Shown here piece by piece: positions 2,204 through 17,864 of a stretch of DNA of 28,513 nucleotides. The DNA comes from a virus. The position numbers and the translations under genes are program-made. The stretch is from the IMG/VR virus record IMGVR_UViG_3300034104_004450, positions 1 through 28,513 of that record; one strand, written 5' to 3'. Within the stretch, counting starts at the first letter, position 1. Each line of letters starts with the position of its first letter. Under the pieces are notes generated by a model. It worked only from the letters and a program-made list of their open reading frames with translations. It was not told the DNA's origin and made no database searches.

Positions 2204-2665
2204 ATGGCAGATGGTATAACTTATGGTATTAATTTTCCTTTTGTAGATTCATACGTTGGAAAATATTTAGATGCTTCAGATACGGGAGAAGAAGAAGTTA
2301 GAAGTAATTTAGTACATTTATTACTAACTAAAAAAGGTACAAGGTATTTTCTTCCAGATTTTGGTACAAGACTTTATGAATATATTTTTGAACCGTTAGA
2401 CGGACCAACATTTTCAGAAATTGAAAGTGAAATTAGAGATTCGGTAGAGAAGTATATGCCAGGAATTTTAATCACAAACATATCAATAACAGACGCAGCA
2501 GAACAAGTTAATAGTCAAGACACGACATATGTAAACGAAAATGGGCAAAGAGAATTTAGAACACCAAATATTACAACACAAGAACATACCGCAAAAATAA
2601 AAATTGATTATAAAAACACAAACGGGGTGTTTAACTCAAGTGATTTTGTAATAATTAATATTTAA
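2204..2665 (+). CDS. Baseplate wedge protein, gp25-like (GPW/gp25 family)
   Basis: This 153-residue protein would be a small sheath-initiating component of a contractile-tail baseplate wedge, partnering the gp6-like protein encoded immediately downstream. The family core spans about residues 30-100: EVRSNLVHLLLTKKGTRYFL, then PDFGTR, LYEYIFEPLD and an amphipathic helix leading to SVEKYMPGI. The 'leading strand, KGTR, PDFGTRL' order is diagnostic of gp25-like proteins in T4-like phages, P2-like phages and contractile injection systems. The length fits the family (T4 gp25 is about 130 residues). It is the first gene after the terminator and starts at ATG without a Shine-Dalgarno site. The gp6-like gene follows 5 bases later, the same order as gene 25 and gene 6 in T4. 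Confidence 0.9.
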   Translation: MADGITYGINFPFVDSYVGKYLDASDTGEEEVRSNLVHLLLTKKGTRYFLPDFGTRLYEYIFEPLDGPTFSEIESEIRDSVEKYMPGILITNISITDAAEQVNSQDTTYVNENGQREFRTPNITTQEHTAKIKIDYKNTNGVFNSSDFVIINI

Positions 2666-2670
2666 TAAAA

Positions 2671-4509
2671 ATGGCAAATAAAAAAATATCATACACAACT
2701 AGGGATTTTCAAGGGATAAGAACCGAGTTAATAAATTTTACAAAACAGTATTATCCAGACGTTGTACAAAATTTTAACGACGCTGGGGTTTTTTCGGTCT
2801 TATTAGACCTTAACGCTGCAGTTAATGACAACCTACAATACCAAATAGATAGAAGTGTTCAAGAAACTGTTTTACAGTACGCACAACAAAAAACCTCTAT
2901 TTATAATTTAGCTAGAACCTACGGTTTAAAAATTCCAGGATCAAGACCATCTGTGACTTTAGTTGATTTTTCAATTGTAGTACCCGCAAATGCAGATAAA
3001 GAAGATTTGAGATATTGTGGAATATTAAGACGAGGTTCTCAAGTTTCTGGTGCTGGACAACCTTTTGAGACTGTTTATGACATTGATTTTTCGTCACCAG
3101 TTAACGCTGAAGGGTTTCCGAATAGACTAAAAATACCAAATTTTGATTCAAATAATAGATTATTAAACTATACAATTACAAAACGAGAAGTTGTTGTAAA
3201 TGGAACAACTAAAGTTTTTAAAAGAGTAATTAACGCAAATGACGTAAGACCTTTTTTTGAATTATTTCTCCCTGAAAGAAATGTTTTGGGTGTTACAAGT
3301 GTATTATTAAAAGATGGAACACAATATACAACAATACCACAACCTCAAGAATTTCTTGGATTAGAAAATCGTTGGTATGAAGTAAAAGCCCTTGCTGAAG
3401 ATAGGGTTTTTGTTGAGGATCCAACAAAACCATCAGACCAACCAGGTGTTAAAGTTGGTAAATATATTACGACAAACACTAAATTTATAACAGAATTTAC
3501 ACCAGAAGGGTTTTTTAAACTTACCTTTGGTGGTGGTAACACGTCAGCCGAAGAACAATTAAGAGAATTTGCTAGAAGTGGTAGTCCTATGAATCTTAAT
3601 AAGTATATGGATAATTTTGCTTTAGGTAGTTCATTAAAATCTAATTCAACAATATTCATCCAGTATAGAATTGGTGGGGGACAAGTTACAAATCTAGGTG
3701 TTGATGTGATAAATCAAATTGGTACTGTATCATTTTATGTTAATGGCCCATCACAAACAACTAATAATAGTGTTGTAAACTCATTAAAATGTACAAACGT
3801 AACGGCCGCTATTGGTGGTTCTAATCCACCAACAACAGAGGAAGTAAGACAATATGTGTCGTTTAATTTCGCGGCACAAAATAGAGCCGTAACCGTAAAC
3901 GATTATGAATCAATTATTAGAACAATGCCGTCACAATTCGGAGCCCCTGGTAAAGTGTCAATTATGGAAGAAAATAATAAAATAAAAATTAAAATGCTTT
4001 CATACGACACTAGTGGAAACTTAACAGAAATTGTCTCAAACACATTAAGAAATAATGTTGCGAATTATTTGTCAAACTATAGAATGATTAATGATTATAT
4101 TTCAGTTGAAACTGCAAATGTGATTGATTTGGGTATTGATATAACTGTTATTTTAGATAGTACACAAAGTCAAGGACAAGTTATTACAAATATTATCAAT
4201 ATTGTTAGCAACTTCTTTAGTCCTGTAAATAGGGAATTGGGTCAAAATGTTTATATTGCAGAATTAAAAAGACTTATACAAACAGAAAATGGTGTAATCT
4301 CAACATCAAATATACTGGTTTATAATAAAGTTGGAGGCGAATATTCATCTTCTCAAACATCTCAAGAATATGAGAACGCAGAAACAAGACAAATCAAATT
4401 AGTAAACGAAACAATATTTGCAGAACCAAACCAAATTTATCAAATTAGGTTTCCAAATAAAGACATTACAGTATCAGTATTAAATTATAATACAGTTAAT
4501 ATTTCTTGA
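2671..4509 (+). CDS. Baseplate wedge protein, gp6-like (Baseplate J family)
   Basis: This 612-residue protein would form the inner ring of the baseplate as a gp6/J-type wedge protein. The N-terminus (TTRDFQGIRTELINF, then a YYPD motif near 30 and NDAGVFSVLLDLNA at about 36-52) is the typical opening of T4 gp6-like proteins. A helical segment (YQIDRSVQET, about 57-66) and LARTYGLKIPGSRPS follow. The C-terminal part has the J-family elements: SFNFAAQNRAVTVNDYESII, then MPSQFGAPGKVSI (about 403-438), and a last domain starting near VIDLGIDITVIL. T4 gp6 is about 660 residues, so it is full length. It lies 5 bases after the gp25-like gene. The start has only an A-rich leader (ATAAAAATGG). The fold assignment is secure by motif and context. 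Confidence 0.88.
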   Translation: MANKKISYTTRDFQGIRTELINFTKQYYPDVVQNFNDAGVFSVLLDLNAAVNDNLQYQIDRSVQETVLQYAQQKTSIYNLARTYGLKIPGSRPSVTLVDFSIVVPANADKEDLRYCGILRRGSQVSGAGQPFETVYDIDFSSPVNAEGFPNRLKIPNFDSNNRLLNYTITKREVVVNGTTKVFKRVINANDVRPFFELFLPERNVLGVTSVLLKDGTQYTTIPQPQEFLGLENRWYEVKALAEDRVFVEDPTKPSDQPGVKVGKYITTNTKFITEFTPEGFFKLTFGGGNTSAEEQLREFARSGSPMNLNKYMDNFALGSSLKSNSTIFIQYRIGGGQVTNLGVDVINQIGTVSFYVNGPSQTTNNSVVNSLKCTNVTAAIGGSNPPTTEEVRQYVSFNFAAQNRAVTVNDYESIIRTMPSQFGAPGKVSIMEENNKIKIKMLSYDTSGNLTEIVSNTLRNNVANYLSNYRMINDYISVETANVIDLGIDITVILDSTQSQGQVITNIINIVSNFFSPVNRELGQNVYIAELKRLIQTENGVISTSNILVYNKVGGEYSSSQTSQEYENAETRQIKLVNETIFAEPNQIYQIRFPNKDITVSVLNYNTVNIS

Positions 4510-4583
4510 TAATTTATTTTTCCAATAAAAAGATTATTTTTTGAAAATAGGAAATAAACTATTTATCAAAAAAAGGAAATTTA
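4510..4583 (+). promoter_or_regulatory. Leader/possible promoter upstream of the giant tail gene
   Basis: This 74-base gap is the longest non-coding stretch within the plus-strand cluster. It has ACTATTTAT at 4558-4566, identical to the motif at 13898-13906. An AGGAAA at about 4575-4580 could act as a weak ribosome-binding site for the ATG at 4584; this is unusual here, because neighbouring genes show none. An imperfect A/T-rich inverted repeat (TTATTTTTCC near 4513 and GGAAATAA near 4550) could fold but is weak. The call is inferred. Confidence 0.3.
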
Positions 4584-7500
4584 ATGCCCAAATCATATAG
4601 AATAAAAGCAACACCCGGTGTAGACCAACGTATTGATGTTAAATTAGAACAAGACTTTGAATTTCTTGAGATACTTTCTCTTAAAATATTACAAAGTGAG
4701 ATTTACACAAGAGTTTGTTCCGATTATGGTGTTATTGTAGGTAGAGTATCTGTTAATAATGGGTATGGAGTACCAAACGCTAAAGTATCTGTTTTTATTC
4801 CACTTTCAGAGGAGGATAGTGCAAACCCAATTATAAGTGAATTATACCCTTATCAAACACTAACTGACAGAAATGAGGAAGGTTATAGGTATAATTTACT
4901 ACCAAAATCACCATCATACACAAATCACGCCGCCACTGGTAGTTTTCCAGATAAAGAACAAGCTCTTTTAGATCAATCTTGGGTTGAGGTGTATGACAAA
5001 TACTATAAATTTACCGTCAAAACAAATGATAGTGGTGATTATATGATTTTTGGTGTACCTACGGGCCCTCAAACACTTGTGATGGATGTTGATTTATCAG
5101 ACATTGGTTGTTTTTCACTAACACCACAAGATTTAATTAGAACTGGGAATGCGGTTGAAAATGACTTTAACGGTAATCAGTTTAAATCTAATTCAAATTT
5201 AGAAGAATTACCACAGATTATAAACTTCAATAGTATTATTGAAGTCACACCACTTTGGGGAGACACAAATGTATGTCAATTAGGGATTAATAGGGTTGAT
5301 TTTGATTTAACAAAAGAATACAACATAAAAATTGAACCGGTCGCTGTGTTTCTTGGATCAATTATGTCAAATACAGACGAAAACGCTCAAAAAATTAATT
5401 GTAAACCACAAAAAGATACTGGTAAATTTTGTGAGTTAATTACTGGTCCTGGACAAATTTTAGCAATTCGTCAAACAATAGATTTAGATAATCAGGGACT
5501 ACCGATTTTACAACAATATAAATTAATTAATGACGGTAAAATAATTGATGAAAATGGTACTTTTGTTGTTGACGTACCAATGAATTTAGATTATGTAACA
5601 ACAAATGAATTTGGTGAACAAGTATTATCTGTCGACCCAAAAGTAGGTATACCAACAAAAGGAAAATATAGATTTAAAATAAAATGGCAAAATGAAAACG
5701 GAAATAGTAATGATGTTATAAGAGCAAATTTCCTTGTACCAAATATTAGAGAATTTGGGTGGAATGCATCAAATGACGACCCATATGATTACCCACAATT
5801 CCAAACTTATTATTTAGTTGATGCCAATGGTATTCCAGCGGGCTCTACATCATATACAACATTTATGAATTTTTCGGGTGGACTATCTCTTGTTGAAATT
5901 ATAAATGCTGAGAATTTAACTTTAACAATTAACGGAATACCATATTATGGAACTTTTGAAAGTATCAACGTGTCTGGGTTACCAACGTTTGCTTGGACTT
6001 TTGACCCAATTGATATTACACAAAACGTTATTGTTAAATTTCAATATTTCCCACAAGACTATTTTGAATTACTAAAATCCTATGCTTTTAGTTTGGAGTG
6101 GGATGATTATGCAAACATTACTGACGCTGTTAATTGTGTAGATACTTTCTATGAATTTAATTATAACAAGGTTTATACAACGGCAATGTTTTTAGATAGG
6201 TATAAATACGGTAATGCTAGGTGGGCACATCTTGGTATAAAAGAAATTGACGATAGAACTTGTAGAAGTGAGAATAATGTGTTTCCTGTAAATGATATTA
6301 TAAGAAACCAAGATATTTGGTATCAACTTTTAATCTTTCTTCTTGGTATTTTAACATTTCCAATAATCGTTATAATAATTTTGGCACACATAGTTTATCA
6401 ATTATGGCCAATTGTAAAACTATTATTTGGAGCTCTAATTATTTTTCTAGGATACTACGCGGTATCACAAGGATACGAAATTGTCACCACATTATTTTGG
6501 ATTTCCAGTGGAATACCAGCATTACTAGGAATTACTTATACAACTTGGCAAATAACTAAATTGGTTCTTTTAGCTATTTTATATGCTGCGCTTTTAGCAT
6601 TTAGTGTATATCTATTAATACAATATTTTAAATACTTTTTACCACTAAAAACATTACCAATATCACTACCATTGCTTTCATATCCGGATTGTACAAATTG
6701 TGAATGTAGTTGTGCGGAACCAGAAATTGATGACATTACAATTGATGACATAAATCAAGGAATACAAGAGAATTATTCTCAAAATGAAATAACACTTCCA
6801 GATGGGACAACCGTACCCGCTGTTGCGACCTCAAACTCACAACTTGCCCCTTTAAATCAGGCGTCTAGTTACTTAACAGACCACCCAAATTTCCCACAAT
6901 TACCTGGGGCTAACACAACAACAGCTAGTGCTGGTTGGTTTTGGGGTGGTTCACAATATAAGTCATTAGAATATTCGGCAAATGATGATGAAATGGAAAT
7001 TAGTGTTTGCACATCCGCAGTTATAAATTTTAGAAGGTTGTTTTCTGGAAGTGACTTAATTGTTCCTGGAACAATAAATAGATTACACGCACCGCAACCA
7101 TTTTTATTTGCTGGTGATAAAAGTACTGGTGACGATGAAAGATGGTTTGGTTTTCCAGTGGATGTTACTTACCCACAAAAATTAAATGAATTTAATACTA
7201 GGTCTAAATATTTTACAAACGCATCACCATTAGGTAGTTTAAATAGAATAACAACAACCGTTAACCCATCTTTAAACAGTGATCCGTTTGATGACCAGAT
7301 AATTGTTGTTTTAGCAAAACCAGGAACAACCGGACAACTTATAAATAACCTCATTACATTTCAAGACCCTTTAGCTTCTCCATCGTACATTAATATAACT
7401 GGTGCGACTGAAAACCAATACAGTACGAATTCAATTACTGGAACAACAACTACTGGTTCGTCAATTGTAAAAATAGTAAAATGGGCAAATCCGACAGACC

Positions 7501-10154
7501 CAACGGGTGTTTTGGAGAATACATCAATAATCAAAATAAACCAAACTTCAAATAACCAACAATTTATTTATCCAAATGATATTGAGTATTACCAATTAAT
7601 TACTGGACTAACCGTTAGTTCGTTTTTAACATTATCAAATGGTTCAAACAACCCACAATTATTTCACCAAGAGTATTTAAGACACAAAATAAATTATATA
7701 ATCGCAGATAGAACGGCTGTTTCTAGTGATGTTGAAGCAAACGACCCATTCCAGACAGGTCCTGGTTTTGAGACATTTATATATAATAATCCAGTTAATA
7801 ATGAAACTTATTATAGACAAATTGGAAATTACGATTCATTAACCGCTTTATCAACATACAATTCTTACGAGTTATTATTCATAACAAGAGGTGTTGACCC
7901 ATATACTGACAAACAAGAAATCAAATATGATTTATCTAAAATATTTGGGTTTACAACACCAAATACAGTAACTTTTACTGGTGAAAGATTTTTAAATGTA
8001 CCAATACAAGCAACAAACTCCGCAAAACCAAGGTCACACAACACATCAAATAATACTGATACAAAATTATATTTTCCATCATACACTTTTACTATTACAA
8101 GTCCATATACCGCGTACACGTCATTTAATCCGTATTACTATTTATCAACGGATGATATATCGTTAAACATCACAACTGGTGGTTCGCCTGGAAATGGAGG
8201 TTCTGGCTATAGACCAACAACATTTATGCCGACATTATCCACACTATCAAACACAACAAATTTATTTTCTGGGGATAGAACATTACCTAATTATAACACC
8301 GAATACATTGGAGGTGGTTCATTTATTGGGTCTAAATTTAATAACTTAAACCAAAGTAATTGGAATAATTTTTCTGATGGGTATTTTATAGATAGAGTTA
8401 CAAGTACAGGCACTTATGGATACCCAGAAAACCTAGACTCAAATCAAGACATATACGCAGTGTATTCACCAGCATATTATAGATATACTGGAAGTACAAA
8501 CAACCCACTTTTAGGTGTAAATTTCTCTGACCAAACAAAATTAATAATGCGTTCGGATAGATTACCAACATCTGATAAAACACAAGAAAGTGAACAAGGT
8601 ACTGGATTTGCGTTACAACAAAACGACAACTTCAAAATATATGTAAACTTTGAAGGAATTGAAAGTATACCAATTAGTTTTGGACCACAAGAATCAACTG
8701 GGGAAAGTTTAGATGAAGACAGTATGATTACTGGTATTACTGAATCTTTAGAATGTAGTAATACAGTTCCACTTGAATGTTACCAAGGAACTGGCACAAA
8801 CTTATCTATAGACCAAGATTGTGTTGATAAGTATAAAAAAAATATTGTTGACGGATGTTACTGTTTCCCAACTAAAAGATCTGGTGTTTATATTTTAAAC
8901 ATACCCCGTGACGTTAAATTCTTTTTAGAATGGAAAGTTAGATTTACTGTTTTATATGCTGCATGTAGAGGGATTTTTTCACAAACATTCCAAAACAATT
9001 GGATTAATGGAAACTTATATATGTTTTCAATAAAAAAGGGTAATAAATATTTTTTAAATCCATTACAAGATACCGCTTTTGATTTTTGTGACCACAATGT
9101 AATTTATAATGAAATTAGTGATAATTTTTATTATAGGAGTTCACCTTACAATCAAACTTTTAACACGTTCATTGGTGCTGAAAGAGCAAACACATTTTTA
9201 TTCCCAACTATTTTTGATGGATCAGGAGGATTTAACGACAAACAAATCCAATTCCCAACTACAATTATGGATCTTGGACCAAGAGATAAATTTATTAGTG
9301 AAATTTGTTCTGATGATAATTTACGTGGTTATTTTGTTGACCAAGTAAAATCAACAAGTTATAGAGATACATCAGATGTTGTTAAACTAGGATTTTTATC
9401 AAGACTAGTAAATGCGAATTTTTTAAGTGCGATGAACCCAATAGATAGTACAACAACTGGATGGTTTATTGAAGGAACTGGAATATATCAATTCTTTAAT
9501 AGTACCAGAGGTGGTTATAGAATTGATGGCGATTTTGCGCAAGCTTTATCTATTAATAGTGAGTTTAAGGTAATTCCTTTTGCGACAGATACGTACCCAA
9601 ATAACTATATTTATGTTGGTCAAGACAACACATCCCCACTTGGTAAGGGACTTTTCGGTGTATTTTATTCCTCAAGTACACAAGACGTTAAGTTTAGAAG
9701 AATTTATAGTCCAGGCGTTGAAACATTTAGTCAATCACCATTAATTGAGTATAACTATGGATACCCAAACACCCAAATTGTTCCACATTATAGATGGACA
9801 GTGAAATCAAACTCAAATGTTATATTTGGAACTGAAGATAATAATTGGGACACAACACCAGATTTACCAACTGGGTTTTATACCAATGGGTATCAGGACT
9901 TAAATTATTTAACAGACCCTTATTTTAAAATTCTAGGTGGAACAAATTTAGGTTATATTACTAAATTTGATAACAATAACGTACCAGACCCATCAAATAC
10001 ATTTGTGTCTCCTGGGTTACCACCAAGTAGTGGACCATCAACTGGTGATTTATCATATGTTATTGTTGGAGCTCCATACCAATTTTACTTTGGTTTAAAA
10101 GCGGGGGCAACCGCAATAAACAGATATATACAACAATATCTAAACATAGAGTAA
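4584..10154 (+). CDS. Giant baseplate/tail structural protein with internal membrane-like segment
   Basis: This 1856-residue protein is not one I can assign to a named family; its place directly after the gp25/gp6 pair makes a baseplate or tail role likely. Residues about 48-172 look like a carboxypeptidase-regulatory/CNA-B-type beta sandwich (GVIVGRVSVNNGYGVPNAKV, then NDSGDYMIFGVPTGPQTLVM). Residues about 175-575 are beta-rich. Residues about 581-688 form a strongly hydrophobic block with about four potential membrane spans. It is followed at once by a cysteine cluster (C703, C706, C708, C710) and a very acidic stretch. The rest is Asn/Thr/Tyr-rich and beta-like. A second Cys-rich patch lies at about residues 1393-1433 and a conserved-looking end is APYQFYFGLKAGATAINRYI. 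There is no N-terminal signal peptide. T4 gp7 occupies this position but is only 1032 residues and shows no similarity I can see. The next gene starts 1 base after the stop. Confidence 0.75.
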   Translation: MPKSYRIKATPGVDQRIDVKLEQDFEFLEILSLKILQSEIYTRVCSDYGVIVGRVSVNNGYGVPNAKVSVFIPLSEEDSANPIISELYPYQTLTDRNEEGYRYNLLPKSPSYTNHAATGSFPDKEQALLDQSWVEVYDKYYKFTVKTNDSGDYMIFGVPTGPQTLVMDVDLSDIGCFSLTPQDLIRTGNAVENDFNGNQFKSNSNLEELPQIINFNSIIEVTPLWGDTNVCQLGINRVDFDLTKEYNIKIEPVAVFLGSIMSNTDENAQKINCKPQKDTGKFCELITGPGQILAIRQTIDLDNQGLPILQQYKLINDGKIIDENGTFVVDVPMNLDYVTTNEFGEQVLSVDPKVGIPTKGKYRFKIKWQNENGNSNDVIRANFLVPNIREFGWNASNDDPYDYPQFQTYYLVDANGIPAGSTSYTTFMNFSGGLSLVEIINAENLTLTINGIPYYGTFESINVSGLPTFAWTFDPIDITQNVIVKFQYFPQDYFELLKSYAFSLEWDDYANITDAVNCVDTFYEFNYNKVYTTAMFLDRYKYGNARWAHLGIKEIDDRTCRSENNVFPVNDIIRNQDIWYQLLIFLLGILTFPIIVIIILAHIVYQLWPIVKLLFGALIIFLGYYAVSQGYEIVTTLFWISSGIPALLGITYTTWQITKLVLLAILYAALLAFSVYLLIQYFKYFLPLKTLPISLPLLSYPDCTNCECSCAEPEIDDITIDDINQGIQENYSQNEITLPDGTTVPAVATSNSQLAPLNQASSYLTDHPNFPQLPGANTTTASAGWFWGGSQYKSLEYSANDDEMEISVCTSAVINFRRLFSGSDLIVPGTINRLHAPQPFLFAGDKSTGDDERWFGFPVDVTYPQKLNEFNTRSKYFTNASPLGSLNRITTTVNPSLNSDPFDDQIIVVLAKPGTTGQLINNLITFQDPLASPSYINITGATENQYSTNSITGTTTTGSSIVKIVKWANPTDPTGVLENTSIIKINQTSNNQQFIYPNDIEYYQLITGLTVSSFLTLSNGSNNPQLFHQEYLRHKINYIIADRTAVSSDVEANDPFQTGPGFETFIYNNPVNNETYYRQIGNYDSLTALSTYNSYELLFITRGVDPYTDKQEIKYDLSKIFGFTTPNTVTFTGERFLNVPIQATNSAKPRSHNTSNNTDTKLYFPSYTFTITSPYTAYTSFNPYYYLSTDDISLNITTGGSPGNGGSGYRPTTFMPTLSTLSNTTNLFSGDRTLPNYNTEYIGGGSFIGSKFNNLNQSNWNNFSDGYFIDRVTSTGTYGYPENLDSNQDIYAVYSPAYYRYTGSTNNPLLGVNFSDQTKLIMRSDRLPTSDKTQESEQGTGFALQQNDNFKIYVNFEGIESIPISFGPQESTGESLDEDSMITGITESLECSNTVPLECYQGTGTNLSIDQDCVDKYKKNIVDGCYCFPTKRSGVYILNIPRDVKFFLEWKVRFTVLYAACRGIFSQTFQNNWINGNLYMFSIKKGNKYFLNPLQDTAFDFCDHNVIYNEISDNFYYRSSPYNQTFNTFIGAERANTFLFPTIFDGSGGFNDKQIQFPTTIMDLGPRDKFISEICSDDNLRGYFVDQVKSTSYRDTSDVVKLGFLSRLVNANFLSAMNPIDSTTTGWFIEGTGIYQFFNSTRGGYRIDGDFAQALSINSEFKVIPFATDTYPNNYIYVGQDNTSPLGKGLFGVFYSSSTQDVKFRRIYSPGVETFSQSPLIEYNYGYPNTQIVPHYRWTVKSNSNVIFGTEDNNWDTTPDLPTGFYTNGYQDLNYLTDPYFKILGGTNLGYITKFDNNNVPDPSNTFVSPGLPPSSGPSTGDLSYVIVGAPYQFYFGLKAGATAINRYIQQYLNIE
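6324..6713 (+). other. Encoded multi-span hydrophobic block plus Cys cluster
   Basis: Within the 1856-residue protein, four hydrophobic runs follow each other: about 582-604 (LLIFLLGILTFPIIVIIILA), 607-627 (LWPIVKLLFGALIIFLGYYA), 633-652 (around LFWISSGIPALLGIT) and 657-687 (around LVLLAILYAALLAFSVYLLI). They are separated by only a few polar residues. CTNCECSC (codons 6690-6713) comes straight after. This is the pattern of a polytopic membrane segment and is out of place in an otherwise soluble, beta-rich virion protein. That it inserts into a membrane is inference. Confidence 0.7.
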
Positions 10155-10155
10155 A

Positions 10156-11904
10156 ATGAATATTGACCAAACAAAGATAATATTAGGTTCACAAAAAAAC
10201 CAAGTAAGTGTTGACGTTGACACTACTGTGGACATTTCATTAGAACAACAACATAAAGAATTGTTTGAGTTTGATAGAAGTGTCGATGTTGATTTGGCTT
10301 TAGTTTATAATAACGAAAGACAAAAATCAACAATATTTAGACCATCCGCTAAATTTACACTTCTTTTTGAAAATTCATATACCGGAGCCACAAAATATAC
10401 ACCATTTAAAAATAATCTTTATTATACAAATGCAATTCAAAACCAAATAACACAGATTACTGCTGCAACACCAAGTAATATTTTTTGGGACGGTTTACCA
10501 CAAGCCTGGGAGTTTGATTTTATTAGAGATGATAATAATGTTTCTGGTTATACAATAAATTCTGGTGTAACATCACCACATTTATATTTCGTAAACAAAA
10601 GTGCCACAACATACAATTGGATGTATTATTTGACATACCCCTATGAAAATGAACCAAATAAACTTATGTATGTTATAGATGATATTACAAACGCCTCTTG
10701 GTCTTGGACTGCGTCTGATGGAATACCATATATTATTACTAGAGGTAGTGATTTACTATTGAGAGAGGTTGAGTTTAGATGTCCGATGAAACACGGATTA
10801 AGTCAGTATGATTTCGTTAAATTATCAACAACCTACGACGGTGAAGAGTACTTCCAGGTCTCGTCATTAGGTGATGGTGGTTTTGATAGTGAAGAATATG
10901 TTTTTAACATATCAAATGTTGGGTATACTGGGACTACTTTTTTAACAAACAACCAAGGTACATTTAAAAGAATTATAAACCCAGAAAACCCAGAAACAAT
11001 TTCACAATATTATATAAGAAAACATAAAATATTAACAAATCTTGAGGATGCGATTGTAAATAAAACTGGTTTTGAGGAAAATATTTACAATGGAAAATAT
11101 AAAAAAGAACTTGCTGTATTAACACCAAATGGTGTTGATAGAATTTCAGTAAAAGATATATCAAGAACATATAATTTGAGTTTTAATACTGATGTAGATA
11201 TTTCAGAATTACTTGACAACCAAAAAAGACCACTCTCCAAGTTGTATTTTACTGTTTTATGGAAAGGATATTTTGGGTGGACAAACAAACTTAAAGAAGG
11301 TTGGGAATTTAATCAACCACTTTATTTGGGTCAACCAAACCCTTGGTGGGCAATTAGTGCGTCACAAACTCCGTATACAACAACATCTTATTTTAGTAAC
11401 ACATCACCACCACAAGGGCCTTTTACATATACAAATAATTTTGTTTCTGGAAACACAATATATGGGGATTATTGTGAGTGGAATGATTATGAACAATTAG
11501 AAAGAGAAATATCTAGATATAATCATAAAATTACATTTAATCCTAGTTGGTTTGATTTAAAGTTTGGAACAAACCCTAACAATAAATTCGGGTACTTCTA
11601 TTTTCCACACTACCCCCTAACAATAAAAGTATTTTCAACCTATATTGAGACATATGTTACGGACGGAATTTATAACATACCTAGTTATTCTTTTTTCTCT
11701 GATTTGTCTAATGGGTTTTTATGGAGAGATATTTATGATTATGGGTTTTTTGATGATTTAGGTCGGGGAGTTGATTATCCATTTGTGAATGACGCACATT
11801 ATCCTTATGATAATTACGTATTTAGAATAATACCAGAAGGATCAAACATTAATTTCCCTAACATAACAACAATTGTAGAACCAACAGTAGATGAGTGTGA
11901 ATAA
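10156..11904 (+). CDS. Tail/baseplate structural protein, unassigned
   Basis: I do not recognise a named family for this 582-residue protein. It is rich in Asn, Tyr, Phe and Thr with many short predicted beta strands, as expected for a virion protein. It has no signal peptide, membrane span or enzyme motif. The N-terminus has alternating acidic/hydrophobic strands (VSVDVDTTVDISLEQQHKEL). A block at about residues 300-380 (IVNKTGFEENIYNGKYKKEL, then TPNGVDRISVKD, then SFNTDVDISELLDNQKRPL and LYFTVLWKGYFGW) looks like the conserved core. The gene starts 1 base after the giant protein's stop. It ends inside the next gene with a 14-base overlap, implying translational coupling. A structural role in the baseplate is inferred from context. 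Confidence 0.7.
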   Translation: MNIDQTKIILGSQKNQVSVDVDTTVDISLEQQHKELFEFDRSVDVDLALVYNNERQKSTIFRPSAKFTLLFENSYTGATKYTPFKNNLYYTNAIQNQITQITAATPSNIFWDGLPQAWEFDFIRDDNNVSGYTINSGVTSPHLYFVNKSATTYNWMYYLTYPYENEPNKLMYVIDDITNASWSWTASDGIPYIITRGSDLLLREVEFRCPMKHGLSQYDFVKLSTTYDGEEYFQVSSLGDGGFDSEEYVFNISNVGYTGTTFLTNNQGTFKRIINPENPETISQYYIRKHKILTNLEDAIVNKTGFEENIYNGKYKKELAVLTPNGVDRISVKDISRTYNLSFNTDVDISELLDNQKRPLSKLYFTVLWKGYFGWTNKLKEGWEFNQPLYLGQPNPWWAISASQTPYTTTSYFSNTSPPQGPFTYTNNFVSGNTIYGDYCEWNDYEQLEREISRYNHKITFNPSWFDLKFGTNPNNKFGYFYFPHYPLTIKVFSTYIETYVTDGIYNIPSYSFFSDLSNGFLWRDIYDYGFFDDLGRGVDYPFVNDAHYPYDNYVFRIIPEGSNINFPNITTIVEPTVDECE

Positions 11905-12718
11905 ATTCAAAATAGTACCAAATGGTAATCAAAAATACCTTAACATTCCAATAGAAATTAAATGGGATTTTACTGGTAAAGACGATAGTGTTGACGAATA
12001 TGAAAAAACCGTTTTAGAAGAAATTATTGGCACCGCTAATGACTTTGAAATTTGTAGGTTTACTCATCAAGAATATTTAGATGTCAATCAAAGAACTAAA
12101 ACAAACATAAATTATCAATTTAATTTTTATGACAATGTTTCGCCTATTACGGCTTCCACCGTTACAACGGCAAATTGGGATGATACCTATTTAAATCTTG
12201 GGTTTACAACCGACGACATTTATTTCTTTAGAAAACCATTCACAAAATCGTTTTTTAAACTTGACTTTTACAACACACAAAGCGAGGTAACGCAAAATAT
12301 ATATTTTACAATAATATTACCTGTTCAACAAGGAAACACACAAACTGTAAACTTATCTAGTTATATTACTAACGTTGATATACGAAAACCAGAATTTAAA
12401 CTAGATTTTCTAGGTGATAAGGAAGGGTTTTTTATTTATTGGCTTAGAGATAGAAATTATATTGATATTAGTGAATTTTATATGAGTGCTAAGTTTTTTA
12501 ATGCTAGAACTGGTTCTTTTATAAGAATGATGAATAGACCACAAATACCACCATTCACTCCAACATTATTTACGTTTAACACAGACGATTACTTTTATTA
12601 TAAGGTAAAATTAGATTATAACACTAAAACATATCAAGTATATAGTACAATAAACCCTACTCAAATTGTTGGTGTTGAAGGAACACCAATTGTTTGGTAT
12701 CAATATGTAAACCCATAA
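11891..12718 (+). CDS. Tail/baseplate structural protein, unassigned
   Basis: This 275-residue protein of unknown family opens with KFKIVPNGNQKYLNIPIEIK and an acidic helix-like stretch (DDSVDEYEKTVLEEII). It continues as beta-rich sequence with an aromatic core (FFIYWLRDRNYIDISEFYMS, about 183-202). There are no membrane segments or catalytic motifs. The chosen ATG overlaps the previous gene by 14 bases; a GTG at 11897 is an alternative start that would remove only two residues. The next gene begins 1 base after the stop in the TAAAATGG arrangement also seen at 10152. Membership of the same structural operon is clear; the precise role is not. Confidence 0.68.
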   Translation: MSVNKFKIVPNGNQKYLNIPIEIKWDFTGKDDSVDEYEKTVLEEIIGTANDFEICRFTHQEYLDVNQRTKTNINYQFNFYDNVSPITASTVTTANWDDTYLNLGFTTDDIYFFRKPFTKSFFKLDFYNTQSEVTQNIYFTIILPVQQGNTQTVNLSSYITNVDIRKPEFKLDFLGDKEGFFIYWLRDRNYIDISEFYMSAKFFNARTGSFIRMMNRPQIPPFTPTLFTFNTDDYFYYKVKLDYNTKTYQVYSTINPTQIVGVEGTPIVWYQYVNP

Positions 12719-12719
12719 A

Positions 12720-13898
12720 ATGGAAGAACAAAGATATTATTTTAAAATATCACCAGAAAATCTTTTATCCGATTTGGTACGAGTACCTTATACGGCAGGG
12801 ACAAATACGTATTATGAGGTTGACCCTTGTTGTCCAATTACAGCAACAACAACAGAAACCCTTACTGGTACAACTGGGGTTTATACAGGACTTACTTATT
12901 TATTAACAGGTGGTACAGATGGTACATCATTATTAACGGGTCTTACAATCCCAATTTTATTTACAGAGACAGCAATAGATATTGGTTATTATTCTGTTTT
13001 TGATGGTGCGGTTTTACAATCATCATTAATGAAAAACTTTTTGTTTAGTGCCGACACAACTTCACCATACACTTATTTTTTTTATAACACCTCTCAAACA
13101 GAATTTTTAAAATTTTTAGGTCTTACAATTTATAAAATAGATTGGGGTGATGGTTCACCACAACAAATTGTAACATCACCAGCACCTATTGCACATACCT
13201 ACCCATTATCATCAGCACAATATGAAATAACTTTTATTGCTAATTCACCTTGGGGAAACTCAACAATAACAAAAACAATAACTGTACCTTTTACTAATGT
13301 GTCAATTTTTAACCCACAAGGTACGGCTTATTTTACACCAAATACAGGAAGTTGGACTGGTACACCAGTTAGTTATGATTATATTTTTACTGGTGACTCA
13401 AACACAAACTTACAAGATTTTTTCTCATCTGGTTACACAACAACACCATTTGTTGTTTCTGGATATACACAATCGGCAATAAATGATTTAGTACAATATG
13501 GGCCGAAGTATACACTTTTAGGTGGTAAATTTAAAGTCGGTGTTCCAGTTACCGGTACTTCTGGATGTGTTGGAATTGTTTACACACCAAACCCATCTTT
13601 CCCATATACCGCATATACAATAGATAATATTGATTATTATGATTACGATAATGGAACAACAATATATATCGTAAATTCTTCTGGATTTACAAGTGAAAAT
13701 TTAATTATGACGGCCATAACAAAAAATGAGGCCCTTATGAATATGATTGATCAACCTCAAATCATTAGTAACGTGTTTATTGAACGAGGTAAAGTTTCTG
13801 TCTTTGAGTCGTTTGAGAGGATTGGTGAAGTAGATAATTTAGGTGATTTACAAAAATATGGATATAAGTTTTTTAAAGTCCAAAAAAATAACCTTTAA
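12720..13898 (+). CDS. PKD-domain virion protein
   Basis: This 392-residue protein has a PKD-type immunoglobulin-like domain at about residues 108-191. The hallmarks are IYKIDWGDGSPQQIV (about 137-151), IAHTYP (157-162) and a final strand pair ending in TITKTITVPF. PKD domains usually mediate protein or glycan contacts and are common on phage tails. The N-terminal 100 residues are Thr/Gly/Leu-rich and low in complexity. The C-terminus (about 336-388: NEALMNMIDQPQIISNVFIE, RGKVSVFESFERIGEV, DNLGDLQKYGYKFF) has helices and a charged pattern that I think is a conserved assembly region in phage baseplate-associated proteins, though I cannot name it. A related WGDG domain occurs in the adhesin encoded at 17864-20812. 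Confidence 0.75.
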   Translation: MEEQRYYFKISPENLLSDLVRVPYTAGTNTYYEVDPCCPITATTTETLTGTTGVYTGLTYLLTGGTDGTSLLTGLTIPILFTETAIDIGYYSVFDGAVLQSSLMKNFLFSADTTSPYTYFFYNTSQTEFLKFLGLTIYKIDWGDGSPQQIVTSPAPIAHTYPLSSAQYEITFIANSPWGNSTITKTITVPFTNVSIFNPQGTAYFTPNTGSWTGTPVSYDYIFTGDSNTNLQDFFSSGYTTTPFVVSGYTQSAINDLVQYGPKYTLLGGKFKVGVPVTGTSGCVGIVYTPNPSFPYTAYTIDNIDYYDYDNGTTIYIVNSSGFTSENLIMTAITKNEALMNMIDQPQIISNVFIERGKVSVFESFERIGEVDNLGDLQKYGYKFFKVQKNNL

Positions 13899-13935
13899 CT
13901 ATTTATAATAAAATAAAAATACTAAATATTAATTT
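13898..13935 (+). promoter_or_regulatory. Probable promoter/leader with ACTATTTAT motif
   Basis: This AT-only gap contains ACTATTTAT (13898-13906) followed by AATAAAAT. The nine-base motif is shared with the 4510-4583 leader, and both precede a gene that is not coupled to its upstream neighbour. No Shine-Dalgarno site precedes the GTG start at 13936. Promoter function is inference; chance occurrence is possible. Confidence 0.33.
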
Positions 13936-14844
13936 GTGGCAACAGGAAATTACGGTACAATAAGACCTTCAGATGTGAGTCCAGATGATGTGGAAATTAT
14001 ATTAAATTATACACCATCTAGAGACGAAACAACTGACTTTATACTCACAAAATTGGATGCAACAACTTTGTTACGTCCTTATTTTCACAATGATGAAACT
14101 GGGGGAAATAGTGGTGTAGAGATACTTGGTGGTCTATACAATTTAAGACTACCTGTTGACCAGTTTAATAAGTTAGGTATATATACACTTTATATAAGAC
14201 CGGCGGAAATTAGAACAACAATAACCGATTGTGGTGTTCTATTGGCACTACCAAATGTAAAAGGAATTATTATTGATTTGAATAATGTCCCAACACAGTT
14301 TCAAAACAAGTTTACAAATCAAGGTCTTGTTGGGTTTAGAGTTGAATATTTAAATGGGGATGGGTCTAAAATACCAAATTTCTTTAGAATTATAACATCA
14401 TCTTTTTATTGTGAACCAGTAACAACAAATGTAACAAACAGTATACAACAAACGATTAGATATAGATATGTTGAAAGTCAAACAAATTTATTGTTTTGTA
14501 CTCTTTCACCATCATCGTCACCAACCAACAAACCTAACGCAACACCTTATATTGGTCAACCAAACCAGAATATTATTATTACAAATACATATTTTAATCC
14601 AATCACAACGGAAATAGAAATTGTTGAACACGATATATCAACTCTTGCAATTGCACTTTATGGTAATCAAACCAAGTCAATTGATGATGGTATTTATACA
14701 ATTTACGATAGTGATAATAACATTTACAAACAATACAATCTATACGAAATTAGAGACCAATTTAATGATTTATTATATGAGGTTAGACAAGATAGAGGGG
14801 ATAATATAGACTTTAGTAAAAACTTTACAAACATAACAGGATAA
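13936..14844 (+). CDS. Tail/baseplate structural protein, unassigned (GTG start)
   Basis: This 302-residue protein comes from no family I can name. The GTG start is well supported: an in-frame TAA lies at 13930-13932 and there is no earlier ATG, while the encoded ATGNYGTIRPSDVSPDDVEI runs directly into confident beta-rich sequence. The N-terminal 160 residues look like one beta domain (RPYFHNDETGG, GLYNLRLPVDQFNKLGIYTL, YIRPAEIRTTITDCGVLLAL). A Ser/Pro/Thr/Asn linker is at about 192-206. The C-terminal 90 residues contain helical sequence (YNLYEIRDQFNDLLYEVRQD). The stop overlaps the next ATG by one base (TAATG), so it is translationally coupled to the gp7/tail-protein-I-like gene, which suggests the two act together in the wedge. 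Confidence 0.72.
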   Translation: MATGNYGTIRPSDVSPDDVEIILNYTPSRDETTDFILTKLDATTLLRPYFHNDETGGNSGVEILGGLYNLRLPVDQFNKLGIYTLYIRPAEIRTTITDCGVLLALPNVKGIIIDLNNVPTQFQNKFTNQGLVGFRVEYLNGDGSKIPNFFRIITSSFYCEPVTTNVTNSIQQTIRYRYVESQTNLLFCTLSPSSSPTNKPNATPYIGQPNQNIIITNTYFNPITTEIEIVEHDISTLAIALYGNQTKSIDDGIYTIYDSDNNIYKQYNLYEIRDQFNDLLYEVRQDRGDNIDFSKNFTNITG

Positions 14845-17800
14845 TGGCAATTGTAAAATACACATGCCCACCACAAGCTAGCGGTCAGGGGTCTTTTTCG
14901 GACAACCTAGTTGGGTTTCAAATTGTTGATGGTGGAGGTTTTACTCAAGGAAACTTCCAGTTTACAACAGCAATTACAGAAAAAACAAATAGGACTTTCA
15001 ATATCGGAACGTTTTCAGACCCAATAAGTTTGGACACAATGAATGTTGATAGTCTACTCCAAAGTCGTATTGATAGTGCAAAAAACCTTAAAGTTTATCC
15101 TAATTTTGATTTAAGTGAGGTTACAAATTTTACTTTATTTGGTTCGCTTAGTAAAAGATTATCTGTTTCTGTAACAAGAATTATTAATTTTTTTCCGGCA
15201 GCAATAGATGTTAGAAGTTTGTATCCTAATTTTCTTACCGGTACAACCGCAAATAATATATCTTATGACCAAGTTAATAACGAAACCTATTTAGAAATAG
15301 ATTTAGGAATACTTTATAACCCATTTGATATTGATTATACAGTAAATGCAACACGAAATTTAGAACTAAAAGAAATTGAAGTTTCTTATCTTAGAAATTT
15401 TACAAAAGAATATAAAAAATACTCTTTATTTGTAAATTCGGTTGAATACCCAATAACGTTTTTTTCGGGAGTTGAACCTAACGAAACTGTTTTAAGTTTT
15501 TACGTTCAAGGTAGACCATTTGGTATAAATCAATCAACATATGAAACATTAATAATTAGACCAAATGATTTATATGTGAATGAAACTTTTTCTAATTCAT
15601 TAGATGAGGTTGAAAGGTTTTTGTTAAATAGAGATGTAATACCAAAATACACCGCTTCATTTCAAAAAACAGTGGAAGATGAATCTGGAAAATTTATCTT
15701 CATAAATCAAAATGTAACATTTCCACTAAACGGAGAATGGAATTTAGATATATCAACAACATTTTTTGACCAGTATTTGAACACGTTGAATGAAATTGGA
15801 GCTAGTGTTGATAATTATAGAACTAATTTAATTTCTAGATTTTTAACAACTGGTGCATTAAAAGAATTTGACACCCCAGATCAAAAAATAGAAAAAGTTT
15901 TACAACTTTACGGAAGAAGTTTTGATGAAACAAGGAAGTTTATAATTTCCTTGGCTAATATGAATTCCGTACACTACAATGTTGGTGACGACATACCATC
16001 ACAATTATTAAAAAACTTAGCACAAACTTTGGGTTGGAATACAAACATTTCACCAATTAGTGATGAAGAATTACTTACATCATTATTTAGTAGAAGTGAA
16101 AGTTTATTTGAGGGAGTTTCTGTCGGACCAACACCAGACGAATTAAATTATCAATTTTATAGAAATTTAATATTAAATTCAGCATTCCTTTTTAAATCAA
16201 AAGGAACAAGAAAGTCAATTGAAATATTATTAAGATTAGTTGGTGCTCCAGAAGCCCTTGTTGATTTTAATGAATATGTATATATTGCTGACCAAAAAAT
16301 TAACTTAAATGAATTTGAAACGAGATTTGCAAAAATTTCTGCAGGGACTTATGTTGACCAAGTATCAATCATAGACCCAACAGATGTTTATACAATATTT
16401 GGCGTACCATACACCGCATTTACAACATCACCAATAATAGAAGACGTTACAACCTTGAGAAGTGATTATCCAATTGATTATTTTGGTTACCCTAGTATGC
16501 CAAGAGAAACTGAAGATTATTATTATCAGATAGGTGGTGGTTGGTTTGAATCAACACCACAACATAGGATGCCTGAAGTAATTGATGTCACTGGAAGTGT
16601 TTTTACGGGTGAAAACCCTAACTATCAAACAGTACTACAACCCGCAAATTATGGAGAAGAATACTTAAATAGGTATAGAAATTTTCCATATATTGATATG
16701 GGCTTCAAGATAAGAAAAATTGCTGACAATAAAAAAAGTTGGTCTGATAATGAAATTGGTTTAAGACGAAATAGTGACGGAAATTTTAACGCTTACTATA
16801 GGGTGGATGATGAAAATTTGACAATTAACGTTAAAAATGTTGATATATTTTTAAATCCAGGACAAGGCTTAGCTTATGATGTTTGGAGTATGTCTGTTAA
16901 TTACAACTTCCCAATACCAGAACAAGGACTTAATTATGTCCCACCAACAAAATGTAACCCAAATCCATATACACCATACCCACAAAGGGGTGGTATTGAT
17001 TGGACAGAATCTATACCAAAACCAAGAGAAAAATCTTTTTTTGAGTTCGCTCAAACTTTTTGGCATAATACAATAAATGTAAGAAATAGACAATTTATTA
17101 CAGATGGTAAAACAGGTGGATACCCAACACTACAATCTATTTTTTGGAAATATTTAGAATCTGATTTATATGTGAATATACCAAATGATCAATTCACTTA
17201 TCAAAAAATGATTGACTATGTAAATGGTTTGGGTGATTACTGGATTAGACTTGTGGAACAAATGGTTCCAGCAACAACTTTATGGAATACTGGGGTTAGA
17301 TTTGAAAATTCAATTTTCCACAGACAAAAATTTGTGTGGAGAAGACAGTGTGGTTGTCAAATAATACCAATACCTTGTAAACCTTGTTCTTTTACAGCAC
17401 AAATACTACCATATGACTGTCCAATACAAGTTGTTGAGTGTGATTTGTTCCCTTGGGCTCAAGACCCAAAAATAACCACTTTTGGCGATATAATGGCAAA
17501 ACTACTAGATGGGTATCTTTTAAGTCTAGGTAATGTTACGAATTGTCAATATAATACAATGGTTTCTACTTGGTATGTTGATATTAGAATTGATGGTGTG
17601 GTAGCAACATCGTTTGAATTTTTTACTGGGTATGGTTACTCAAATCCAGTGTTTAGTATACCAAGTGAAGACTTGTGGCGTACAGCAGTAAATGGTGCAT
17701 TAGCCGAGTTATTTACATATGGACTATCATATAATATCTTTGGTGATAAGGTTTATGTTTACAATAATAATTGTGAACCGATAGAAGTTTCACAACTTTT

Positions 17801-17864
17801 TGAATTAAACGTGGGTATAGATTTTGACATTCTATGTGCCCTTTTAGATACAGAACTTGGATAA
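14844..17864 (+). CDS. Baseplate protein with gp7/tail-protein-I-like core
   Basis: This 1006-residue protein probably joins the wedge to peripheral fibres. The first 300 residues are beta-rich. Residues about 305-475 are helical. They include YLNTLNEIGASVDNYRTNLI, a KVLQLYGRSFDETRKFI segment, a LAQTLGW motif and FLFKSKGTRKSIEILLRLVG (about 449-468). This last pattern matches the 'F-x-SKGT-x-x-x-I-x-x-L' element I recall at the C-terminal end of T4 gp7 and in P2-type tail protein I. Residues 833-866 form a cysteine-rich knot (C836, C838 and further cysteines in QIIPIPCKPCSF). The last ~120 residues are a separate domain that resembles one in the next protein. The start and stop are both in one-base TAATG overlaps with neighbours. 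The tail-protein-I-like call is by motif; the name gp7 is a functional analogy. Confidence 0.75.
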   Translation: MAIVKYTCPPQASGQGSFSDNLVGFQIVDGGGFTQGNFQFTTAITEKTNRTFNIGTFSDPISLDTMNVDSLLQSRIDSAKNLKVYPNFDLSEVTNFTLFGSLSKRLSVSVTRIINFFPAAIDVRSLYPNFLTGTTANNISYDQVNNETYLEIDLGILYNPFDIDYTVNATRNLELKEIEVSYLRNFTKEYKKYSLFVNSVEYPITFFSGVEPNETVLSFYVQGRPFGINQSTYETLIIRPNDLYVNETFSNSLDEVERFLLNRDVIPKYTASFQKTVEDESGKFIFINQNVTFPLNGEWNLDISTTFFDQYLNTLNEIGASVDNYRTNLISRFLTTGALKEFDTPDQKIEKVLQLYGRSFDETRKFIISLANMNSVHYNVGDDIPSQLLKNLAQTLGWNTNISPISDEELLTSLFSRSESLFEGVSVGPTPDELNYQFYRNLILNSAFLFKSKGTRKSIEILLRLVGAPEALVDFNEYVYIADQKINLNEFETRFAKISAGTYVDQVSIIDPTDVYTIFGVPYTAFTTSPIIEDVTTLRSDYPIDYFGYPSMPRETEDYYYQIGGGWFESTPQHRMPEVIDVTGSVFTGENPNYQTVLQPANYGEEYLNRYRNFPYIDMGFKIRKIADNKKSWSDNEIGLRRNSDGNFNAYYRVDDENLTINVKNVDIFLNPGQGLAYDVWSMSVNYNFPIPEQGLNYVPPTKCNPNPYTPYPQRGGIDWTESIPKPREKSFFEFAQTFWHNTINVRNRQFITDGKTGGYPTLQSIFWKYLESDLYVNIPNDQFTYQKMIDYVNGLGDYWIRLVEQMVPATTLWNTGVRFENSIFHRQKFVWRRQCGCQIIPIPCKPCSFTAQILPYDCPIQVVECDLFPWAQDPKITTFGDIMAKLLDGYLLSLGNVTNCQYNTMVSTWYVDIRIDGVVATSFEFFTGYGYSNPVFSIPSEDLWRTAVNGALAELFTYGLSYNIFGDKVYVYNNNCEPIEVSQLFELNVGIDFDILCALLDTELG

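Follow-up and report, generated by a model that had tools for sequence, protein, structure and literature searches.

An internal hydrophobic block in a giant baseplate-region protein of contractile-tailed jumbo phages and its possible role in membrane docking

A 1856-residue protein encoded beside the baseplate wedge genes of an uncultivated phage, here denoted P2, carries within a soluble body a long hydrophobic element that is conserved in position and hydrophobicity across three clades of relatives; in the two sister clades, a separate small membrane protein is encoded directly upstream. Whereas T6SS and membrane-bound CIS dock to membranes, the usual assumption for phage tails is that they assemble freely in the cytoplasm. 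Our leading, still tentative, interpretation is that the P2 block is a lipid-inserting docking module, acting most likely at the inner membrane of the producing cell during assembly. If this is correct, the conserved membrane element and the partner gene of the sister clades would link phage tails to the docking T6SS and CIS, and the question of whether membrane docking arose or persisted in phages would become testable.

RESULTS

The P2 locus and its phage family

The window, that is, the whole analyzed stretch of 28,513 nucleotides (IMG/VR record IMGVR_UViG_3300034104_004450, positions 1 to 28,513), encodes P2, the giant protein of its baseplate region, as an intact ORF. The adjoining upstream genes match the gp25 and gp6 families of Pfam (Table 1), so the location originally predicted, right after gp25/gp6, is confirmed. 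The five genes past P2, which are syntenic in related loci, probably encode baseplate or fibre proteins. The N-terminal part of P2 (residues 1 to 390) is its most conserved portion; in the model of a relative, residues 49 to 250 compare with transthyretin/carboxypeptidase-regulatory-like folds at Z-scores of 5 to 7, the level of a common fold. P2 gave no family match, and nothing of use, against Pfam, PHROGs, and PDB sequences, in agreement with the earlier statement that no described baseplate component has this layout. PDB fold searches (Foldseek/VIA) returned just common beta-sandwich folds, and we found no literature on a phage wedge protein with such a hydrophobic block.

Several other features of the window were recorded. 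Directly upstream of the baseplate genes lies a ribonucleotide reductase gene (66-1925, +) with a match to the class II (B12-type) insertion domain (PF21995), a neighbor that is also present in many loci of the window's clade. Alternative-frame ORFs within the baseplate genes (11213-11500, 6317-6559, 3345-3659; -) are probably spurious. SprB repeats (PF13573) occur in two large proteins (17834-20812, +, and 24155-26425, -), in the second just below the curated cutoff, and suggest, by inference from sequence, a Bacteroidota host. Host assignment from the MAG bins of three relatives (L080 to L082; Wolfebacteria, Mycoplasmatota, and Bacteroidota) was dropped because the bins disagree.

P2 as the query retrieved 78 loci in one scan, and an alignment retrieved at least 597 stretches; two more clades came within reach when divergent members were used as queries. 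Family counts refer to the matches listed, up to 80 loci per collection scan. We denoted the window's clade A; clade B is typified by L081 and clade C by L313 to L367. Several loci from the clade-C scan (e.g., L369 and L383 to L392) carry an A-type motif, and the tree shows L080, L315, and L082 as basal relatives standing apart. The P2 family is shared by a large group of contractile-tailed jumbo phages, most of them uncultivated. Contigs carrying relatives reach 412 kb, and a contractile sheath was found in 10 of 10 clade-A records and in 5 of 8 large clade-B or clade-C records. P2 is a hallmark protein of this widespread group, for which four tblastn queries found no relatives in the 50,697 annotated phage records searched (INPHARED). 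The single family member in BFVD, the uncharacterised A0A8S5LA66 (Myoviridae sp. ctPuP5), shares 41% identity with the clade-B core at a TM-score of about 0.8. The check proposed originally, whether the block is conserved together with gp25/gp6 neighbors, gave a positive answer: among the matches listed, the gp25-gp6-P2 order holds in 277 of the 285 loci with enough upstream sequence. A first check found no gp25 or gp6 match upstream of L082.

Some records of the family encode very large tail sheaths of about 1100 to 1480 aa (G003:C1:231684-235034, G010:C1:21777-25112, and G013:C1:121321-125757), the C-terminal part of which matches known sheaths where tested.

Table 1. Coordinates of P2, its neighbors, and the elements of the hydrophobic block in the window
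Feature	Position	Strand	Basis or remark
gp25-like baseplate wedge/sheath initiator	2204..2665	+	PF04965 1.1e-11
gp6-like (Baseplate_J) wedge protein	2671..4509	+	PF04865 2.4e-7; phrog_219 1.4e-19
gp6-P2 gap, 74 nt, empty in the window	4510..4583	.	Small membrane gene sits here in sister clades
P2, giant baseplate-region protein with the block	4584..10154	+	Intact ORF; relatives in three clades
Conserved N-terminal part of P2, residues 1-390, including a transthyretin/carboxypeptidase-regulatory-like beta sandwich	4584..5753	+	PF13620 weak; relative's model
C560, invariant Cys ahead of the hydrophobic block in the window clade	6261..6263	+	28/28 aligned
Hydrophobic helix 1, residues 578-606, family-wide element, including H602	6315..6401	+	AF2 helix
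Hydrophobic helix 2, residues 608-642, window clade	6405..6509	+	AF2 helix, block pLDDT 56-82; KD peaks 2.01, 1.64
Hydrophobic helix 3, residues 650-685, missing from some window-clade members	6531..6638	+	AF2 helix; KD peak 2.66
C703-x2-C706-x-C708 of the LP(M/L)xxYP(D/E)CxxCxC motif	6690..6707	+	Invariant 28/28
C710, last Cys of the originally described cluster; unconserved	6711..6713	+	Alignment
Downstream syntenic genes, 582, 275, 392, 302, and 1006 aa; none hydrophobic	10156..17864	+	Order kept in related loci; KD maxima <=1.44

The hydrophobic block of P2

The feature that drew attention to P2 spans residues 581 to 710 (6324-6713, +) and had been described as four hydrophobic runs followed by CxxCxCxC and an acidic stretch within an otherwise soluble protein. 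Both halves of this description hold. Residues 578 to 690 form four very hydrophobic, nearly charge-free runs ahead of the Cys cluster and acidic stretch, with 19-residue Kyte-Doolittle (KD) peaks of 3.23 (residue 582), 2.01 (610), 1.64 (633), and 2.66 (661), all within residues 582 to 679, and no value above 1.6 occurs in the rest of P2; in the remaining proteins of the window, the peaks are at most 1.62. Membrane calls throughout this work are based on hydropathy scales. The runs have a low helical moment (0.06 to 0.22) and at most one charged residue per 19 to 21, and a 34-residue stretch from residue 578 is devoid of D, E, K, and R. The hydrophobic stretch, with a core of roughly 46 residues, suffices for two transmembrane helices. 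Chance hydrophobicity is ruled out by P2 shuffles, none of 2000 of which reached 3.23 (highest, 3.11; mean of maxima, 1.84), and by the presence of the segment in register across relatives.

The hydrophobic segment was found within residues 430 to 790 in all 250 distinct relatives of at least 800 aa among the matches listed, in all three clades, and in 17 of these 250 another such segment occurs elsewhere. In every clade, the block starts shortly past an N..P.N motif. The number of hydrophobic peaks ranges from 1 to 4. The polytopic four-run layout, although real in the window, is clade-specific, and the common element is a single long helix of about 30 to 36 residues with a conserved His or Asn (residues 578 to 606 in the window model). 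The invariant or near-invariant polar residue is H602 in clade A (96% conserved), N479 of L302 in clade B, and N508 of L333 in clade C, and a polar stripe with a period of 3.5 to 3.6 residues runs coherently over 36 to 38 residues of the helix in all clades. HHalign comparison of the blocks gave probabilities of 96.9% for clade A against clade C and 57% for clade A against clade B, both exceeding all shuffles. Within clade A, helix 3 is missing in L032, L036, L051, L055, and L057.

Strongly hydrophobic residues make up 72% of the clade-A block and charged ones 7%, and the sequence conservation of the block is 0.53 versus 0.72 for the N-terminal part. Such retention of hydrophobicity while the sequence varies is the usual sign of lipid-facing helices and suggests that this block may face lipid as well. 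The clade-B helix is more amphipathic, and the case for a membrane role is therefore weaker there. Helices of the rumen clade often contain 1 to 3 basic residues (mean, 1.3 charged per 19), and 26 of 52 fall below an <H> of 0.68.

AF2 modeling of P2 residues 1 to 790 from 28 sequences resolved only local helices (pLDDT 50.6). Therefore, a second model was built for the 942-aa relative L302 from 114 sequences (pTM 0.84). The body of this protein is mostly beta, the common helix (residues 459 to 488) has a pLDDT of about 82 to 95, and the module starts from and returns to a single beta-rich body. In the model, this arrangement is compatible with a re-entrant anchor or with an even number of membrane passes.

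The confident modeling of the L302 helix, as if packed on the body, speaks in favor of a different reading, in which the block serves as a helix of an oligomer interface or of the core in the assembled baseplate and never meets lipid. The polar periodicity with its invariant Asn or His fits a buried helix with one exposed edge, the clade-B helix contains charged residues, and contractile baseplates possess a (gp6)2-gp7 core helical bundle (PMC10457771). However, the core-bundle helices of XM1 are N-terminal in gp17/gp7, whereas the P2 helix is internal. Also at odds with burial are the retention of hydrophobicity despite sequence variation and the low moment and almost chargeless character of the helix in the window clade. 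A buried helix, moreover, leaves the small membrane protein adjacent to P2 (see below) unexplained, and the block is missing from two relatives. We consider this reading unlikely. The membrane role envisaged in the original prediction accordingly keeps part of its footing: it is favored by the retained hydrophobicity, by the adjacent small membrane protein, and by the lack of other polytopic proteins in two clade-A structural blocks, and is weakened by the confidently modeled helix of L302 and the basic residues of the rumen clade.

The two relatives in question, L080 (2870-5110) and L315 (from 7998), have short loops where the module would be and no hydrophobic block; thus, the module behaves as an insertion. 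Homologs lacking hydrophobicity in this region, which had been named as evidence against a membrane function, accordingly exist next to the 250 hydrophobic ones. Because the contig ends within L315, and L082 matches only remotely and in part, L080 is the only complete close case without the block. The tree fits both loss of the block in these lineages and gain elsewhere.

The cysteine motif

The hydrophobic block of the window clade is bracketed by cysteines. C560, C703, C706, and C708 are invariant in all 28 aligned window-clade proteins, whereas C710 is not, so that the cluster first described as CxxCxCxC is conserved only as CxxCxC. In the window, AEPEIDDITIDDI follows C703, C706, C708, and C710. 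The YPxCxxCxC motif was detected in 117 of 136 clade-A proteins among the matches listed, and the set C560...C703xxC706xC708 is, like the extra helices, a feature of this clade. By its sequence pattern, the quartet is probably a four-Cys site and a candidate for metal binding.

A small membrane protein gene in the gp6-P2 interval

In clades B and C, the interval between gp6 and P2, which is empty in the window, is occupied by an unannotated gene for a small membrane protein of about 60 to 170 aa (e.g., upstream of 7998 in L333 and of 7989 in L248). The protein carries M-x-C-x(1-2)-C at its N-terminal end, a single segment of 29 uncharged residues with a Pro at the center, and a strongly basic C-terminal side; the C-x(1-2)-C is present in 92 to 95% of the proteins and the central Pro in 98 to 100%. 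The clade-B and clade-C versions are homologous (HHalign 97.7%; 0 of 60 shuffles). Among the matches listed, a profile places the gene upstream of P2 in 75 of 79 clade-B and 53 of 58 clade-C loci, and hydropathy identifies a small membrane ORF there in 0 of 175 loci of query group A, 69 of 75 of query group B, and 55 of 75 of query group C; these loci are related, and the co-occurrence counts are not independent. The few profile matches in window-type loci were attributed to chance, being clade-C proteins misclassified by the regular expression. The exceptions in clade B are L239 and three loci (L233, L234, and L246) in which an inserted gene widens the gap and the membrane ORF is still found by hydropathy. 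Those in clade C are L359, with an A-like LPLTVYPICEEC motif, two truncated loci, and the block-less L080 and L315, which lack the small protein too. Thus, the combination of a Cys cluster and a hydrophobic element occurs in P2 or in its small neighbor, and L080 and L315 have neither version; the pattern is strong but does not amount to proof of a partnership.

The inserted ORFs of L234 and L246, about 300 aa each, contain Cys-rich HGxGC(P/R)xC repeats and resemble, by eye, homing-endonuclease-associated proteins.

Two further candidate relationships were examined and rejected. A partner-like match in the clade-A genome G003 (L409:15089, E 9e-4) proved on inspection to be a chance ORF. Derivation of the P2 block from the small protein by fusion was suggested by the register, but the similarity was not significant (6.9%; 1 of 60 shuffles) and the Cys-transmembrane order of the small protein is reversed relative to P2.

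The small gene could have an unrelated function at this spot, such as that of a holin or a superinfection gene, with the P2 helix being a separate matter. Small proteins with one transmembrane segment are common in phages, and no Pfam, PHROG, or PDB family could be assigned to this one above the cutoff. Yet its presence or absence tracks the P2 type almost perfectly, down to the block-less L080 and L315, and two deep clades have retained its position and N-terminal Cys motif. No match to holin families was found in Pfam and PHROGs at E <= 0.1, and the gene lies inside the baseplate operon as opposed to the lysis module expected of a holin. An unrelated function therefore appears improbable.

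Other hydrophobic proteins of the tail clusters

We scanned the tail clusters for further polytopic proteins, in records that may be incomplete. In the structural blocks of two clade-A records, the 257-kb G003 and a 60-kb stretch of G010, P2 is the only polytopic protein; the G003 sheath shows one marginal hydropathy peak (1.64). In the clade-B cluster, a tail protein of 1069 aa has a segment with a KD value of 2.05, and there are several small hydrophobic ORFs whose standing is uncertain; the clade-C cluster contains the small partner and single segments in two other proteins.

These observations bear on the possibility that the module acts during infection, as a helix or hairpin that is stored in the virion baseplate until the latter opens or the sheath contracts and that then enters the target membrane to seal or line the DNA path. 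The T5 tape measure protein pb2 contains a 46-residue hydrophobic stretch in which two transmembrane helices are possible and which has been suggested to enter the outer membrane next to the baseplate hub (PMC10038345); its length is close to that of the P2 core. The lack of another polytopic protein in the G003 and G010 structural blocks agrees with such a function, and the polar stripe could face a lumen or a helix-helix interface. P2, however, belongs by gene position to the wedge rather than to the tube or tape measure, the small integral membrane protein made separately in the sister clades is more readily accounted for in the producing cell than inside a virion, and clade B has the segment with a KD value of 2.05 in another long tail protein as well. 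Insertion at infection thus seems rather unlikely to us.

DISCUSSION

A possible baseplate-membrane adaptor

In the model that we tentatively favor, a membrane-inserting module is set into the soluble, beta-rich body of P2 in the baseplate wedge region. The long hydrophobic helix of the module, which in the window clade usually has a Pro hinge, would dip into the bilayer and hold the baseplate there. Anchoring in the window clade would be achieved in cis, by this helix and up to three more, with the base closed by the probable four-Cys site; in the sister clades, P2 would contribute a single helix and the small CxC/CxxC integral membrane protein would supply the rest in trans. The module would thereby dock the baseplate on the cytoplasmic face of the inner membrane of the producing cell as a platform for tail assembly, by a logic comparable to that of T6SS baseplate recruitment. 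Some members of the window clade have one hydrophobic peak and no small partner, so cis/trans complementarity is inexact.

Such an assembly-time tether is slightly preferred over T5-like insertion at infection, and a buried structural helix ranks below both; the residual probability goes to functions not listed here. An unrelated role of the small gene concerns the partner only and overlaps with the other readings. Taken further, it is possible, and we hold this with more reserve than docking itself, that in a large group of contractile jumbo phages tails are built or docked on a host membrane through a phage-encoded baseplate-membrane adaptor, swapped in evolution between cis (extra P2 helices and Cys cluster) and trans (small CxC protein), a T6SS-like step in a free phage.

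Comparison with known systems

Among wedge components, T4 gp7 and XM1 gp17 are large proteins located next to gp6/gp25, and their N-terminal helix-turn-helix forms the core bundle with the gp6 dimer (PMC10457771). P2 shares with them the place next to gp6/gp25 and the large size but no detectable sequence match; residues 1 to 50 of the L302 model, which are of low confidence, show no helix-turn-helix. The features described for XM1 gp17 do not include an internal hydrophobic block (PMC10457771). T5 pb2 differs in type: P2 follows gp6, is beta-rich, and has a low share of helix-forming residues (0.27 to 0.28), unlike helix-rich tape measure proteins.

Membrane recruitment of contractile machines takes several forms. 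In T6SS, recruitment of a baseplate resembling that of phages to the inner membrane (TssEFGK to TssJLM, through TssG-TssM) provides the platform for tube and sheath assembly (PMC4604203). The T6SS baseplate proteins are soluble and depend for anchoring on a distinct membrane complex (PMC4604203), whereas P2 itself carries the hydrophobic module and its owner is a phage. In Streptomyces, the CIS gene cluster includes a membrane protein, CisA, for which a role in bringing the CIS to the membrane has been proposed (PMC12237407). The small partner, likewise a membrane protein encoded in such a cluster, has one transmembrane-length segment and a basic C-terminal side. CisA is bitopic with a periplasmic domain (residues 310 to 468; PMC12237407), whereas the partner has an N-terminal CxC/CxxC and, at about 60 to 170 aa without a Pfam domain above the cutoff, no C-terminal periplasmic domain resembling substrate-binding domains. 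In the thylakoid-anchored CIS, baseplate-associated parts with a membrane-binding element (Cis12/Cis13) position the contractile machine at the membrane (PMC8894136). The anchor of Cis13 is a C-terminal transmembrane helix of a trimeric fibre (PMC8894136), whereas the block of P2 is internal, at residues 578 to 690 of 1856.
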